Shown here: piece by piece, positions 3,120 to 35,984 of the stretch | Layout: each line of letters opens with the position of its first letter | Position numbering within the stretch: position 1 is the first letter of the stretch | From: Candidatus Poseidoniaceae archaeon | GTDB lineage: Archaea > Thermoplasmatota > Poseidoniia > Poseidoniales > Poseidoniaceae | DNA length: 42,967 bases | Assembly: GCA_949373075.1 (NCBI GenBank) | Contig: CASIBX010000042.1 | Span: 1 to 42,967, forward strand | Reading direction: 5' to 3' | Notes under the pieces: model-generated | What the model saw: the letters and a program-made list of their open reading frames with translations, nothing else | The model's database searches: none | Told to the model about the DNA's origin: nothing | Translations under genes and position numbers: made by a program

Positions 3120-3821
3120 ATGAGTTTGCTCAAACAGGTGTCAGAAGATGCCGCTATGAGTAACATTCAGAATAAGGCGAAAGATGAACTGCTAAAGGGA
3201 TTGGTTACTGGAGAAATTTCGCACCGATTTGAAGTAATCAGAGAATATACACGTAGTTTGGGTGGGCGAAAAATTGTAGGCAACACGGCGTCTACAATCT
3301 TCTTCATCCCATGGATTATTGTTGGACTGGTCTTCATTGGCGTATCTTTTTTGATTCTTTTTAGTCCTGATAGCGAAGCCCCTATTTTCTTGTCATGTTG
3401 CACGTTTGGTGCAGGCTCAATTGCTGCAATGATTGGATTTTCGGGCGTCAGGGGCTCCGTTGGAGAGATGGTTAATCCGGAAGATTATGAGAAATACGAG
3501 GCGACTGTTTACTTCAATCGTCGTGAGCGATACCTTGCAGAGGTCAAGGTTGTTCTTGATGCAACCGATGATGATTTAATTGGTGACATCACATTTCTCA
3601 ATGAGATTACTCTCTCAAAGAAAAGTGAGATTTTTTGCAAATACCGCCCAGGTTCAGACGGCGCTGTAAGGCCAGATTTCAACGATTTCATTATTTCACA
3701 TGGCAATGTATCCATACAGTTGGATGGTCATACATATTTGAAAGACAAAAAAAGAATTGCAATTGCGAAAGAATGGTCTGAAAAACTTGAAGTGAAAATT
3801 GGGGAACCTTTAGTCATATAA
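3120..3821 (+). CDS. Two-span membrane protein of unknown function
   Basis: 233 residues from an ATG. The N-terminal 55 residues are charged and probably helical. Two membrane spans follow at about 56-82 (TIFFIPWIIVGLVFIGVSF) and 88-110, with a short loop. A soluble C-terminal domain of about 120 residues alternates beta-like and charged segments. I do not recognise the fold. Topology suggests both soluble parts lie on the same side, probably the cytoplasm. It stands alone between a large intergenic region and the convergent TPM-domain gene, and is probably transcribed by itself. A membrane-attached ligand-binding or scaffolding role would fit, but no motif supports a specific one. Confidence 0.6.
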   Translation: MSLLKQVSEDAAMSNIQNKAKDELLKGLVTGEISHRFEVIREYTRSLGGRKIVGNTASTIFFIPWIIVGLVFIGVSFLILFSPDSEAPIFLSCCTFGAGSIAAMIGFSGVRGSVGEMVNPEDYEKYEATVYFNRRERYLAEVKVVLDATDDDLIGDITFLNEITLSKKSEIFCKYRPGSDGAVRPDFNDFIISHGNVSIQLDGHTYLKDKKRIAIAKEWSEKLEVKIGEPLVI

Positions 3822-3896: not shown

Positions 3897-3914
3897 GCGT
3901 GTCATTCTAGACGC
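3897..3914 (+). repeat. Short interspersed repeat, copy 2
   Basis: GCGTGTCATTCTAGACGC, the partner of 1000-1019. It lies just beyond the 3' end of the minus-strand TPM gene (ends at 3928). A shared 3'-region element or remnant of a mobile repeat are both possible. Confidence 0.45.
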
Positions 3915-3927
3915 CACTAATGCAAAT

Positions 3928-6228
3928 TCATCTTTTGCGTCTGCCGCCGCCTTTGCGATCGCCGCCTCTTGAAGAGCCACGTGTTGAACCACCACTGCTG
4001 CCACCGCTGCTTCCGCCGCTACCTCGTGAACCACGAGATGCGCCACCGCCTCTTGATCCTCTGGAAGACCTTGAACTACGCCTGGATGCTGGAGCGGAGT
4101 CCTTCCTAGATGCTGGTGCCTGTTTTTGAGCAGGTGCTGATTGTTGCTGAGGGGTGTTGTGATGATGATGCACCTCTCTATGGTCGACGTAGTTGTTACC
4201 TCCGCCGTAAGGGTCGTAATACGGGTCCTCATATCTAGAACGAGTGAATCTGGTTCTCCATCCTCCACCGTGAGAAGTGCCTCCAGATTTGCCTACTAGA
4301 ACTATCAAGAACACGATCCCTGCAAGGATGGCCAAACAAAATACTGCCCCTATTATTAGTTCGGTAGTGCTTGCTTCGACTTCTTCGCCATCTTGGACTG
4401 TTAAGTCGTTATTCGATGGGTCTGTAACTACAGGAGGGGTTTCACAATCAGCTGGATATTGATAACATAATTCATCGTCAACCGCCCAAACTAAATCTTC
4501 GGCGATAACCAGAACTCCGTTTGCCCAATCGCCTGAATCGAAACTAGATTCGGAATCTACTCCAACATTGGAGAAGTCGCCAACGTCATCCCAAAACATG
4601 TCGGCTTGCATCCACCATTCCCAAGTGCCTGATTGATTGGTTGCTATAACTAACAAAATGGTATCTTGCCAATCGGATTCCTGAAGTTCCCACTCTTCGA
4701 ATAGAGCGACTGAGAAGTCTTGTAAGCTCATTGCCTCTTCTTCCGGAGAATCATCAGATCCGCTATCTGCTGAGGTGTCGTTTCCTGTGTTATTTCCCCC
4801 GGTGTTGTTGTCAGCTGTGTTGTCCCCACCAGTGTTGTTGCCGGTTGTCATGTACTCAAGATGACTTTGAGGGCTTTGGTCAAGATAGGTCACGTGCAGG
4901 TCATCATTCGAATCAATCGCTAATGAGGATTGATAGCCGACGTAATCTGTGCTATCGAGTGAGACCGGTGTGCTCCATGAAGAGCCATTATGAGTCATGT
5001 ACTCAAGATTGTCATTGGTATCGTCACGATAGGTCACGTGCAGGTTATCATTGGAATCAACCGCTAATGAGGATTCAATGCCGACGTCATCTGTGCTGTC
5101 GAGCGAGACCGGTGTGCTCCATGAAGAGCCATCATAGGTCATGTACTCAAGATTGTAATTGGTGTTGTCAAGATAGGTCACGTGCAGGTTATCATTGGAA
5201 TCAATCGCTAATGAGGAGCCTCCGCCGACGTCATCTGTGCTGTCGAGTGAGACCGGTGTACTCCAAGAAGAGCCATCATAGGTCATGTACTCAAGATTGT
5301 AATTGGTGTTGTCAAGATAGGTCACGTGCAGGTTATCATTGGAATCAATCGCTAATGAGGGTTCAAAGCCGACGGAATCTGTGCTGTCGAGCGAGACCGG
5401 TGTGCTCCATGAAGAGCCATTATGCGTCATATACGCAAGATTGTAATTGGTGTTGTCACGATAGGTCACATGCAGATTATCTTCAGAATCAATCGCTAAT
5501 GAGGAGGAAAAGCCGACGATATCTGTGCTGTCGAGCGAGACCGGTGTGCTCCATGAAGAGCCATTATGAGTCATGTACTCAAGACTGTAATTGGTAGTGT
5601 TAAGATAGGTCACGTGCAGGTTATCATTCGAATCAATCGCTAATGAGGAATCATAACCGACGACATCGAGCAAGACCGGTGTGCTCCATGAAGAGCCATT
5701 ATGAGTCATGTACTCAAGACTGCCATTGATGTAGTCCCGATAGGTCACGTGCAGGTTATCATTCGAATCAATCGCTAATGAGGAGTCCCAGCCGACCTCA
5801 CCTGTGCTGTCGAGTGAGACCGGTGTGCCCCATACTTGAGCGGATGAACCGTCTTCAGGGGAATTAGTATTATTATCTTGATTTTCATTTGTTGATTCAC
5901 TGGACTCTGTATTGCTTTCAGGTTCTGGTTGATAATTTGCTGTAGATTCAATCAACACGACAATAATTTCAGTGCCCCACAGATCATATGCTTCGTAAAG
6001 AACATCATCGATTGCTAGTTCATCTGTTTCATCAATCGCATCAATATCATCAATAATGAAGGTACCATTATCTTCAGGGAATGTTAACTCTGCCTGAATG
6101 GCACTAGGGATGAGTAAAGCCAAAGTTAACCCTAAAACGAACAAATACCTAGTTGTGGTTTTGGATTTGTCATTGCTTTTTGTTAACTGAAGAAGAGCAA
6201 TATTATCTGCTTTCATGAAGTGTTCCAA
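3928..6228 (-). CDS. TPM-domain membrane protein interrupted by a seven-repeat, propeller-like insertion
   Basis: 766 residues. The order is: signal peptide (about 26-46, ending AIQA); first half of a TPM (YgcG-type) domain (about 48-97); acidic Asn/Ser linker; seven tandem repeats of 45-48 residues (133-465) with the core SSLAIDSNDNLHVTY; a Gly/Asn linker; second half of TPM (about 500-590: a FSVALFEEW helix, an ILLVIA strand and FDSGDWANGVLVIAEDL); membrane span (622-645); and a tail rich in Gly, Ser and Arg. Known for TPM: a small extracytoplasmic domain linked to photosystem II repair in plants and found with similar Gly/Ser tails in prokaryotes. Seven units suggest one seven-bladed beta-propeller; the Asp-rich core resembles Asp-box-like blades. 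Inferred: a surface-facing ligand-binding module grafted into a loop of TPM. The short charged stretch before the hydrophobic core favours the start at 6228 or Met5. The exact activity is unknown. Confidence 0.75.
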   Translation of the reverse strand: MEHFMKADNIALLQLTKSNDKSKTTTRYLFVLGLTLALLIPSAIQAELTFPEDNGTFIIDDIDAIDETDELAIDDVLYEAYDLWGTEIIVVLIESTANYQPEPESNTESSESTNENQDNNTNSPEDGSSAQVWGTPVSLDSTGEVGWDSSLAIDSNDNLHVTYRDYINGSLEYMTHNGSSWSTPVLLDVVGYDSSLAIDSNDNLHVTYLNTTNYSLEYMTHNGSSWSTPVSLDSTDIVGFSSSLAIDSEDNLHVTYRDNTNYNLAYMTHNGSSWSTPVSLDSTDSVGFEPSLAIDSNDNLHVTYLDNTNYNLEYMTYDGSSWSTPVSLDSTDDVGGGSSLAIDSNDNLHVTYLDNTNYNLEYMTYDGSSWSTPVSLDSTDDVGIESSLAVDSNDNLHVTYRDDTNDNLEYMTHNGSSWSTPVSLDSTDYVGYQSSLAIDSNDDLHVTYLDQSPQSHLEYMTTGNNTGGDNTADNNTGGNNTGNDTSADSGSDDSPEEEAMSLQDFSVALFEEWELQESDWQDTILLVIATNQSGTWEWWMQADMFWDDVGDFSNVGVDSESSFDSGDWANGVLVIAEDLVWAVDDELCYQYPADCETPPVVTDPSNNDLTVQDGEEVEASTTELIIGAVFCLAILAGIVFLIVLVGKSGGTSHGGGWRTRFTRSRYEDPYYDPYGGGNNYVDHREVHHHHNTPQQQSAPAQKQAPASRKDSAPASRRSSRSSRGSRGGGASRGSRGSGGSSGGSSGGSTRGSSRGGDRKGGGRRKR
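4834..5832 (-). repeat. Seven tandem coding repeats of about 144 bp
   Basis: Seven in-frame units, six of 144-147 bp and one of 135 bp, encode the propeller-like blades of the TPM protein. Units 3 to 6 are the most alike at the DNA level, sharing long runs such as CGATAGGTCAC or AAGATAGGTCACGTGCAGG. This implies recent duplication or gene conversion. Variation is concentrated in two short windows per unit: the two residues after DxVG, and the xDxTN turn. Confidence 0.85.
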
Positions 6229-6361: not shown

Positions 6362-6377
6362 TTAGGCGGTGACGCCA

Positions 6378-7385
6378 ATGGGAAGAGAGCCATACAGGGC
6401 AAAGCAAAGGGCTGTACAGCAACGCCTGTACGCAGACGGTCCGGTGCTACCGCCGCGTCTTGTAACTAGAGCACATCTCCCATGGTTAGCCTGCTATACA
6501 ACTCAATTACAGACTGAAGGTAAATCGGTTAACACTCAAAAATCATACATGGTCGCTCTAAGGCATCTTATCGAAATGCCATTGCCAAGCGAGAATATTC
6601 TTAGCGAAACCGATAGAGACGGGATGAGCGTAGAGGAGTTACTGGAAAGAGTGGAGCCATTCAATGGCAGACTCGACCTGTGGGTTCATTCATTAATTGA
6701 TAGATCGCCTTCAACTGTGAAAGCAAGACTGGCTGCTGCAAACCATTTGATGAATTGGCTTGGTCAAAAATGGCCAGAGCATCTAGTTAGGCCTAAGAGC
6801 GGCAAAAAATTACCTCGTACTTTGACAAGTAGAGAATTATCAATGGTCAAGGAAGCTGCCTCTTGTAGCGAAGACCCAGTTACAAACCTAGTTGTCACTA
6901 TGATTCTAGACACTGGACTTCGAGTCAGTGAATTGTGTGAACTCAGTTTATCAGATATTGATTTACATGACCACTCAGCAATGGTAATCGATGGTAAAGG
7001 TGGAAAAGACAGGTTGGTTTTGTTTACTCAAGCAACGGTCGCTACGATACTTGCTTGGCTTCCTTTACGGGATGCAAGAGTCCCACAAGGTGAACACCTC
7101 TTAGTGACAAAGGCAGGCACTGCATTACAATCTAGAACTATTCAAAGAATGATGGATAGGCTTGCAGATGAGGCTGGAATTCCCCGTGGAAGACTTACTC
7201 CTCACGTTTTACGACATAATTTCGCAACAGGATTGCTTGAAAGAGGAGCCGATTTGGTTAGCATTCAAAGATTACTTGGACATGCTAGCATTGCTACGAC
7301 AAGAGTTTATCTCGAAATAAGTGACCAGACTTTACGAGAAATCTACAAGCGGGCTCAGACTATTGATATCGAAGACGAATCATGA
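6378..7385 (+). CDS. xerA: Tyrosine recombinase, XerA/XerC/D-like
   Basis: 335 residues from the ATG at 6378; a GTG three codons upstream at 6369 is the alternative. An N-terminal SAM-like DNA-binding domain (about residues 30-135) is followed by the catalytic domain. Numbering from the GTG, the catalytic set is R185 (DTGLRVSEL), K210 in DGKGGKDR, H279-R282 (HVLRHNF), H305 (LLGHASI) and nucleophile Y314. All are intact. Known: archaeal XerA resolves chromosome dimers at dif, while relatives move integrative elements. Length and lack of extra domains fit XerA better than an integrase. I found no convincing dif-like site in the window. It follows paired hairpins, diverges from the TPM gene, and its last six bases overlap the convergent small Cys-rich gene. 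Confidence 0.9.
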   Translation: MGREPYRAKQRAVQQRLYADGPVLPPRLVTRAHLPWLACYTTQLQTEGKSVNTQKSYMVALRHLIEMPLPSENILSETDRDGMSVEELLERVEPFNGRLDLWVHSLIDRSPSTVKARLAAANHLMNWLGQKWPEHLVRPKSGKKLPRTLTSRELSMVKEAASCSEDPVTNLVVTMILDTGLRVSELCELSLSDIDLHDHSAMVIDGKGGKDRLVLFTQATVATILAWLPLRDARVPQGEHLLVTKAGTALQSRTIQRMMDRLADEAGIPRGRLTPHVLRHNFATGLLERGADLVSIQRLLGHASIATTRVYLEISDQTLREIYKRAQTIDIEDES

Positions 7386-7610: not shown

Positions 7611-8123
7611 TCAATCCTTGCGGAACCAAGCCATGTCCTTAACCGAGCGAGGGACTTTGAGAGTCTTGCCTTTCCTACCATCATTTGCTTTTGAGGATTT
7701 GACCGATTTACTTCCACCAGTTTTTTTGATGGTTTTTTCTGCAACCTTCCTTCCCGATGCCACGGCTTTAGATGCTGCTGCCTTTGCTGTCTTGGCTGTT
7801 TTCTTTGACTTTGCCGCTGCTTTCTTAGCAGTAGATTTGACCTTAGTTGCGGCTTTAGATGCAACTTTTTTAGCGGCTGCTTTCTTAGGAGATGCCTTCT
7901 TTGGTGCTGCTTTTTTTGCTGGAGATTTCTTTGTAACTGCTGATAGTAACTTCTTTGATATTACTGCGCTCAATCCGGCCTTGACCAATCCCTTTTGGCC
8001 TGCCTTCTTGATCCCTGCTGCGGTTTTGATACCTGAATCACTGAGTTTTTTTGCTGTTGCTTTACCTACTCCAGGTAATGCCATTAGAGTTGCGAGTGGG
8101 TCCTTCTTTGACTTGGCTGCCAT
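7611..8123 (-). CDS. Helix-hairpin-helix protein with lysine/alanine-rich H1-like tail
   Basis: 170 residues from an ATG. Residues 9-60 hold a helix-hairpin-helix unit (LPGVGKATAKKL, then a second similar element GQKGLVKAGL). Residues 65-145 are almost only Lys, Ala, Ser, Thr and Pro, with KKAAPKKASPKKAAAKK-type repeats as in eukaryotic histone H1 and bacterial HU/AlgP tails. The last 20 residues (KTLKVPRSVKDMAWFRKD) leave the low-complexity pattern and look conserved, perhaps a docking end. Inferred: a nucleoid-associated protein using HhH for backbone contacts and the tail for non-specific DNA condensation. It diverges from the gene at 8219. The pI must be very high, unlike the acidic surface proteins around it. 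A ribosome- or RNA-binding role is less likely but possible. Confidence 0.75.
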   Translation of the reverse strand: MAAKSKKDPLATLMALPGVGKATAKKLSDSGIKTAAGIKKAGQKGLVKAGLSAVISKKLLSAVTKKSPAKKAAPKKASPKKAAAKKVASKAATKVKSTAKKAAAKSKKTAKTAKAAASKAVASGRKVAEKTIKKTGGSKSVKSSKANDGRKGKTLKVPRSVKDMAWFRKD

Positions 8124-34872: not shown

Positions 34873-35984
34873 ATGAGTGTACCAACTTCGGGAAGTAGTG
34901 GTTCATTGCAAGCGGAAGTTCTCGATGTCAAAATGGACATCAATGATGATGATGAGGACGTCATTATCGCTACCATCTCAATTTCTAACGAAGCACCCGT
35001 CCCCATGGGTGGATTAGATGTTTCAATAATCACAAACTCTGGCGCCAAACACAATTCAAAAGAAGGGGTTACAAGTCTTGGCCCTGGTGTTGAAAGAGAA
35101 TGGATTTTTGAATTCCCTCTCGACTCGGGAGAATGGACTTTCGTACTAAAGGGCGGTTCTGATGAAATAAAAATGGGCCCTTATGCTTTTGATTTTGAAT
35201 ATAGCGCCACTCAAGGTAGAAAACTTTCTAGCAATATTGGCTCATCTCTATTCTCTGGGGCATTTGGTGATAACTTAGGAGACTTTGGAAATATCCAAGA
35301 ACGTGAGATGATCGATGCGTCCAAGGTCGTGATGACTTCCTATGCTGCCGAAAATTCAGAAGGAGGAGATACTCTAATCAAAACAGATATCGATAAATTA
35401 TCAACTGGATTAACCTCAACATCTAGTGAAGGTGCCTATGATGCACCGATTCTAAATCCTAATCCAATCAGAGAAGCGCCTATGTCTCAGCCATCTCGAG
35501 CCGAGAGTGTTCCAACAACTCCCGCTGTACCACTTACCTCACTCGCAGGTCCACCAACCCCTCCTGCAGGTCCACCAACTCCTCCTGCTGTACCACTTAC
35601 CTCACTCGCAGGTCCACCAACTCCTCCTGCAGGTCCACCAACTCCTCCTGCTGTACCACTTACCTCACTCGCAGGTCCACCAACTCCTCCTGCAGGTCCA
35701 CCAACTCCTCCTGCAGGTCCACCAACTCCTCCTGCAGGTCCACCAACTCCTCCTGCAGGTCCACCAACTCCTCCTGCTGGTCCACCAACTCCTCCTGCTG
35801 GTCCACCAACTGGTCCACCAACTCCTCCTGCTGGTCCACCAACTGGTCCACCAACTGGCCCACCAACTCCTCCTGCTGGTCCACCAACTGGCCACCAACT
35901 GGCCCACCAACTGGCCCACCAACTGGCCCACCAGATAGCAGCACTAAGCCAAAGATAGAGATGCCTGAAAAACCTGAGCTTTGA
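34873..35984 (+). CDS. Beta-domain protein with Pro-rich heptapeptide repeats, frame broken by one base
   Basis: As written, the frame from ATG 34873 ends at 35958 with an unrelated HQLAHQ-type tail. A single missing C near 35891-35893 (GGCCACC where the repeat elsewhere reads GGCCCACC) explains this. Restoring it gives 370 residues ending DSSTKPKIEMPEKPEL at 35984, nine bases before the next gene. The N-terminal 110 residues form a CARDB/Ig-like beta domain (SISNEAPVPMGGLDVSIITN), then an acidic linker, then GPPTPPA heptads and VPLTSLA-containing 21-residue units. No signal peptide is seen. Whether the break is a sequencing error, a real mutation or phase variation cannot be settled here. 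Confidence 0.7.
35527..35935 (+). repeat. Pro-rich coding repeats: 63-bp units and 21-bp heptads
   Basis: Three 63-bp units (35527-35715) encode VPLTSLA plus two GPPTPPA heptads. They are followed by about ten further 21-bp or 12-bp units (GPPTPPA and GPPT). DNA identity among units is nearly complete (CCACCAACTCCTCCTGCAGGT-type), a substrate for slippage. All six frames stay open, which creates several spurious reading frames. Confidence 0.9.

Follow-up and report, generated by a model that had tools for sequence, protein, structure and literature searches.

A predicted seven-bladed propeller cassette inserted in frame within the TPM domain of a Poseidoniales membrane protein

Introduction

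How does an archaeal membrane protein come to have its TPM domain interrupted by seven near-identical repeats, and what might such an interruption serve? The question is raised by a gene in the 42,967-nucleotide stretch of contig CASIBX010000042.1 analysed here (hereafter the window), which belongs to a metagenome-assembled genome (MAG) of Ca. Poseidoniales (Marine Group II; 1.62 Mb, 60% complete). Recognition of particles, prey, partners or viruses by the most abundant surface-ocean archaea is, to our knowledge, poorly understood. Membrane proteins of the PF04536 family include those of the TLP18.3/Psb32, YdjH and YgcG type. The activity of the TPM domain is disputed, some authors favouring a role in the assembly of membrane complexes over that of a phosphatase (PMC11237479, PMC12419801).

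Organization of the gene and of its product

The features of the gene are listed in Table 1. An alternative ATG, located at 6216, lies four codons past the TTG start and is common to the orthologues. Judging from its signal peptide and transmembrane helix, the protein would be membrane-anchored and expose the TPM domain and the repeat array on the outside. The same Arg/Gly/Ser-rich tail is carried by the family-level orthologues. This organization resembles that of ordinary TPM membrane proteins, which comprise a signal peptide, an extracytoplasmic TPM domain, a transmembrane helix and a low-complexity tail. Unlike in these proteins, the TPM domain is here broken by about 400 residues, and this subfamily has 'NQSGTWEWWMQADMFW' where ordinary TPM domains have a 'DRKARIELGAGWG'-like segment. 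An antisense ORF (4731-5597, + strand) was set aside as a mere mirror of the repeats. Elsewhere in the window, positions 35512-35933 hold a long, Pro-rich-looking tandem array of the GGTCCACCAACTCCTCCT type (periods 12-63), and positions 7611-8123 encode a Lys/Ala/Ser-rich protein whose N-terminus weakly matches a helix-hairpin-helix and whose tail resembles histone H1.

Table 1. Features of the TPM gene (window coordinates).
Feature	Residues	Position	Strand	Basis and remarks
Whole coding sequence	766 aa	3928..6228	-	TTG start; start region kept in the MED870 and AG-461-G23 orthologues
Putative signal peptide	about 24-46	6091..6159	-	Hydrophobic stretch TRYLFVLGLTLALLIPSAIQA
TPM domain, first half	48-97	5938..6087	-	Alignment to contiguous-TPM orthologues; Pfam on orthologues
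5' linker, Asn/Ser/Glu-rich	98-131	5836..5937	-	DNA alignment with empty-site orthologues
Segment without counterpart in empty-site orthologues (1,114 bp vs 55 bp)		4747..5860	-	blastn segments
Predicted seven-bladed beta-propeller	132-463	4840..5835	-	TRF; AlphaFold2; Foldseek to seven-bladed lectins
3' linker, NNTGG motifs (GNNTGGDNTADNNTGGNNTGNDTS)	464-499	4732..4839	-	Motifs typical of Poseidoniales cassette borders
TPM domain, second half	500-590	4459..4731	-	PF04536 on residues 500-541; identity to orthologues
Transmembrane helix	about 621-646	4291..4368	-	Sequence; helix 622-646 in the AlphaFold2 model
Basic Arg/Gly/Ser-rich tail, presumed cytoplasmic	647-766	3931..4290	-	Sequence

The two halves of the TPM domain

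Pfam analysis of the protein reports a PF04536 match that passes the gathering score (23.8 bits versus 22.1) and is confined to the start of the second half, while the N-terminal half aligns with the TPM N-terminal half in all orthologues. In the orthologues devoid of propeller, PF04536 reaches 30.8, 34.7 and 42.4 bits; the last value belongs to the L006 orthologue, in which the TPM domain is found in one stretch (profile positions 1-117 of 125), and the G064/L069 orthologue covers profile positions 1-122 (E 2.2e-16). The proposal of a preliminary description of this DNA that the first and second halves of a TPM domain lie on either side of the repeats is thus borne out by Pfam and by the orthologue alignment. 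Once the insert is ignored, both halves read at the sequence level as one contiguous TPM domain. That they also rejoin across the insert, as had been suggested, is consistent with the contiguous domain of the orthologues. Both halves stay below pLDDT 50 in the two AlphaFold2 runs, one of which, on the TPM ectodomain of an empty-site orthologue with a four-row alignment, reaches a pLDDT of 32. These alignments being too shallow for a direct model of the rejoined domain, the packing of the halves rests on orthology. No other propeller-split TPM domain was found in other genomes by a domain search that would largely miss split domains and that missed the present one.

Comparison with empty-site orthologues

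A search with the C-terminal half of the protein identified five genomes, all from one genus, in which the TPM gene is patchy (5 of the 27 genomes sampled, all incomplete). The nearest orthologues, from the congeneric genomes G008/MED870 (L009) and G012/AG-461-G23 (L012), are devoid of propeller, and their open frames comprise 422 and 418 residues, respectively, versus 776 here. Both can be aligned to the present gene at the DNA level (blastn), the 3' flank being 95.6% (MED870) and 89.8% (AG-461-G23) identical and the 5' flank 88%; the second TPM halves are 99% and 93% identical. Where MED870 has 55 bp between the flanks, the present gene has the 1,114-bp segment; the net difference of +1,059 bp, or 353 codons, keeps the frame. 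The propeller is also missing from the more distant congeners G013 and G025 (about 42% identity), whose linkers comprise about 20-25 residues, and from six family-level orthologues of the sister genus, which exhibit at the same place the canonical short loop 'NYTTENDTNMSL' or a similar one. Since the series runs from a short loop to an Asn/Ser linker and then to a linker with a propeller, gain of the propeller is the simple reading. The empty-site orthologues, therefore, directly document the grafting into a loop that had been proposed from the sequence.

The two Asn/Ser/Gly linkers claimed in the preliminary description do flank the units, but they are not wholly new: in the nearest relatives an Asn/Ser-rich linker, about 50 residues long, already occupies the loop, so that part of the linker predates the propeller. 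The 5' linker is accordingly ancestral in part, and its end coincides with the cassette border SAQV. A single MAG is so far seen to carry the insertion.

Synteny with the two nearest genomes ends straight after the TPM stop codon (window positions 3900 and below), where the present window holds a gene at 3120-3821 (+ strand) and the two relatives other small membrane proteins. On the other side, 88% identity is kept from position 6369 onward. The gene adjoining the TPM gene on this side encodes a tyrosine recombinase or integrase (PF00589, XerC/D-like; 6369-7385), and, among the four congeners with a TPM gene, three have such a recombinase beside it (tblastn, 1.5-kb flanks).

The repeat array and its predicted fold

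The units start at W133, W181, W226, W274, W322, W370 and W418 and comprise, in order, 48, 45, 48, 48, 48, 48 and 45 residues. TRF analysis of the array reports a period of 144 and 6.7 copies with a score of 1369, which excludes a chance origin of the repeats; the seven near-identical units first read from the translation are confirmed by this analysis and by the unit listing. AlphaFold2, run with an alignment of two empty-site orthologues and eight homologous propellers, predicts four strands per unit (7 x 4 in total) with pLDDT values of about 80-95 across residues 131-463. Foldseek analysis of the model returns as best PDB matches the seven-bladed PLL/PHL lectins from Photorhabdus (E 6.5e-19), among which 8q82_A exhibits the highest TM score (0.81 normalised by target, 2.3 Å), followed by other lectin and sialidase propellers. 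The array opens with the strand 'WGTPVSLD' and stops just short of repeating it, being one strand out of phase, so that this first strand is able to close the last blade. The seven four-stranded blades are thereby predicted to join into a closed ring by velcro closure. The closed propeller postulated earlier is hence predicted at high confidence and matches solved seven-bladed lectins, and the predicted chain does not follow the open solenoid that had been named as the contrary outcome.

At the sequence level, the relation of this propeller family to known families is weak. Profile analysis reports the Aleuria fucose lectin (E 0.027), and the SBBP repeat PF06739 sums to 34.3 bits (cut-off 20.5), with 15-16 of 38 residues matched and no single significant stretch. 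Pfam matches of the repeats to Gp5_trimer_C, Glyco_hydro_30, RCC1 and similar families are sums without a significant stretch and were discarded as artefacts, and membership in the NCBIfam family PDIAV_lipo was rejected (44.7 bits, cut-off 90). Neither WD40 nor NACHT is returned by a domain scan of the protein, and no match to PLL is found by sequence.

A variable edge on a conserved scaffold

A search pattern in which some positions are fixed yielded 67 blades from ten loci. Within these blades, positions 12, 15, 16, 32, 34 and 37 each accommodate 7-14 different residues (entropy 2.0-3.2 bits), with Tyr, Asp, Asn, Leu, Gln and Trp being frequent, while nearly all other positions are almost fixed. 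The pN/pS ratio reaches 1.51 at the six positions (locus bootstrap 1.37-1.84) versus 0.18 for the scaffold, or 0.36 when the scaffold is restricted to positions that the pattern does not fix; when one blade is drawn per locus, the ratio of the six positions stays above 1 in 192 of 200 draws. Because the blades are paralogous repeats that exchange sequence, these ratios are descriptive and do not constitute a formal selection test.

In the model, the strands cover blade positions 5-8 (d), 13-21 (a), 27-33 (b) and 38-44 (c). From this strand order, the six positions would all fall at the d-a / b-c end, the top face by propeller convention, and the chance of all six falling within the top-edge half is about 0.017. 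On the opposite face, the a-b and c-d loops hardly vary. Since both ends of the propeller chain lie at the c-d end of the blades, both linkers are predicted to attach to the bottom face. The suggestion that the insert is a recognition module thereby gains indirect support from six hypervariable positions per blade on one face. As to a possible diversity-generating retroelement, the W, E, Q, M and K codons present at the variable sites are not those expected from a simple adenine substitution in one AAC template codon.

Related cassettes in other surface proteins

Seven-bladed propellers 76-81% identical to this one over their whole length are present in unrelated Poseidoniales surface proteins, namely NEW3/Ig-type proteins, a surface cyclophilin, and proteins with Asp-rich (DxDxDG-like) repeats. 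The cyclophilin-type peptidyl-prolyl isomerase bearing the cassette is encoded at L013:4020-8240. GC3 is 0.53-0.58 in every cassette and 0.28-0.46 in most host proteins, L007 being an exception. In several of these proteins the borders are alike, with 'SQVWSTP' (CAA GTA TGG) before the cassette and 'LEYM..(S/G)N..GGN' followed by NNTGG-like residues after it; the border codons CAA GTA TGG of the present gene are common to the L007 and L017 cassettes. No second propeller copy or donor was found in the host's own genome, which is 60% complete, and no match indicating a phage or viral origin was found in a phage collection or, with the patterns used, in viral contigs. The locus L007:5126-7162 contains two tandem propeller arrays joined by SSNNTGGNNSGGNTSQVW, the first of which seems to start in another frame, possibly owing to a frameshift.

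A second pair of filled and empty sites is found in a different gene, the filled one belonging to another species. The G025 protein contains a propeller inside an (NNTGG)n linker, with 422 residues between landmarks, and nine orthologues of it, including one in the present genome, possess a linker of 74-131 residues and no propeller. In the G014 NEW3-type surface protein (L084:727-1497), the linker holds a DUF4886 domain (33.6 bits) where G025 has the propeller. From this comparison of filled and empty sites and from the DUF4886 domain of G014, Asn-Thr-Gly linkers look like sites of domain exchange, and the linker DNA itself may mediate recombination. The longest exact DNA common to the junction or 3' linker and the other tested propeller or NNTGG loci is 15-18 bp, too short to prove this recombination route.

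Origin and possible role of the cassette

We consider it likely that a membrane-anchored, extracytoplasmic TPM protein gained a pre-formed seven-bladed cassette by in-frame insertion, the target being a flexible Asn/Ser linker that had replaced a short loop in the middle of the TPM domain. The two flexible linkers would keep the propeller raised above the TPM core and turn the face opposite its termini outward, an arrangement allowed by the location of both termini at the c-d (bottom) edge. The outward face, formed by the d-a and b-c loops and diversified over a frozen scaffold, would be the likely binding face, and the cassette would add a new extracellular binding specificity to the TPM protein and to any membrane complex that it helps to assemble. 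On particles, other cells or viruses, the ligand may be a glycan or a protein. Glycans of particles or cells are plausible candidates, since adhesion genes are frequent in these archaea, for which attachment to particles has been proposed (PMC6461757); proteins or viruses are also possible. The cassette would belong to a family whose members are shuffled from one Poseidoniales surface protein to another, probably through recombination within or close to the NNTGG linker DNA.

Alternative origins of the split gene appear far less probable. One could imagine a metagenomic mis-join by which the TPM gene received the propeller array of a different Poseidoniales gene, given a single MAG, 60% complete, and propeller families that are widespread in Poseidoniales, with repeats that favour mis-joins. 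Such a chimera is nevertheless very improbable: it needs two independent joins, both within the linker and frame-keeping (net +1,059 bp), the short exact matches between the junction linkers and other tested loci fall short of an assembly overlap, the linker residues next to the insert are not those of either orthologue, which is what an aged junction would show, and a similar insertion is present in a second protein from another genome. Slightly more improbable still is a split form that would be ancestral, the propeller having been lost in the relatives. No propeller is present in any nearer or more distant orthologue seen and the GC3 of the cassette is unlike that of the host gene, even if loss is always possible and the gene is patchy within the genus.

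As to function, the propeller might bind no specific ligand and act as a spacer or scaffold only, by which the TPM domain or an interaction partner is lifted above the surface layer. Near-identical blades, flexible linkers at both sides and the presence of other spacer-like repeats in these proteins agree with this idea, which we regard as distinctly unlikely because a spacer would hardly be expected to gather replacement changes on six sites along one edge (pN/pS above 1), and because the nearest folds are lectins. A lectin of the PLL/AAL type with a conserved specificity for fucose or a similar sugar, instead of a diversified receptor, is also unlikely, if to a lesser degree: the best fold matches are fucose-binding propeller lectins and the weak profile similarity to the Aleuria lectin points the same way, but the residues of the candidate edge vary both among blades and among proteins. 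The insertion of a cassette with a diversified, outward face is thus the reading that we retain, and it suggests that, in these archaea, a recognition cassette is handed ready-made from one surface protein to another. The broader proposal, that a Poseidoniales family of seven-bladed cassettes moves between genes and species into Asn-Thr-Gly linkers with its top face under diversifying selection, thereby forming a shuffled extracellular recognition repertoire of planktonic archaea with this TPM protein as one recipient, is more tentative, and we would place it a little short of evenly balanced.

A propeller located within the core fold of an unrelated domain, together with empty orthologues that can be aligned base by base, offers a rare snapshot of a domain insertion in progress. 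In the literature searched, no description was found of the combination of domain insertion with a diversified, highly repetitive propeller.

Comparison with known systems

The Photorhabdus PLL/PHL lectins share with the present propeller the fold of seven four-stranded blades. They differ from it by a sequence identity of about 18-20% in the structural alignment and by being soluble and uninserted. The PLL sugar sites are located between adjacent blades and depend on a conserved Trp (PMC6943638); no conserved Trp was found at the six variable positions here, and the blades do possess an invariant Trp at position 1. WRAP and other highly repetitive propellers, with blades more than 60% identical, have been attributed to recent amplification, and Euryarchaeota are among their carriers (PMC9218822); as far as the available part of that survey goes, it deals with amplification of whole propellers, whereas here a finished propeller is inserted into a loop of an unrelated fold. 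VARTIG from Thermococcales is likewise a hypervariable secreted archaeal protein, apparently diversified by inter-strain recombination (PMC8416519), but it is made up of Ig domains encoded in a dedicated gene module, and is devoid of propellers.

The closest likeness in mode of working may be that of the HNWD proteins of Podospora anserina (het-d/het-e/het-r), in which concerted evolution maintains near-identical WD40 blades while a few codons per blade, subject to diversifying selection, map to the top-face loops (PMC2873952). The present array likewise combines homogenised repeats with replacement changes at a few codons that the strand order of the model places on the top face. Unlike in HNWD, the blades are not WD40, the protein is archaeal and extracellular and has no NACHT/STAND switch, most arrays comprise seven blades, and the cassette would move between genes; the likeness would hence be an analogy of working and not one of membership. 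If the variable face does bind ligands, the cassette family would represent an archaeal counterpart of the diversified propeller receptors of fungal non-self recognition.
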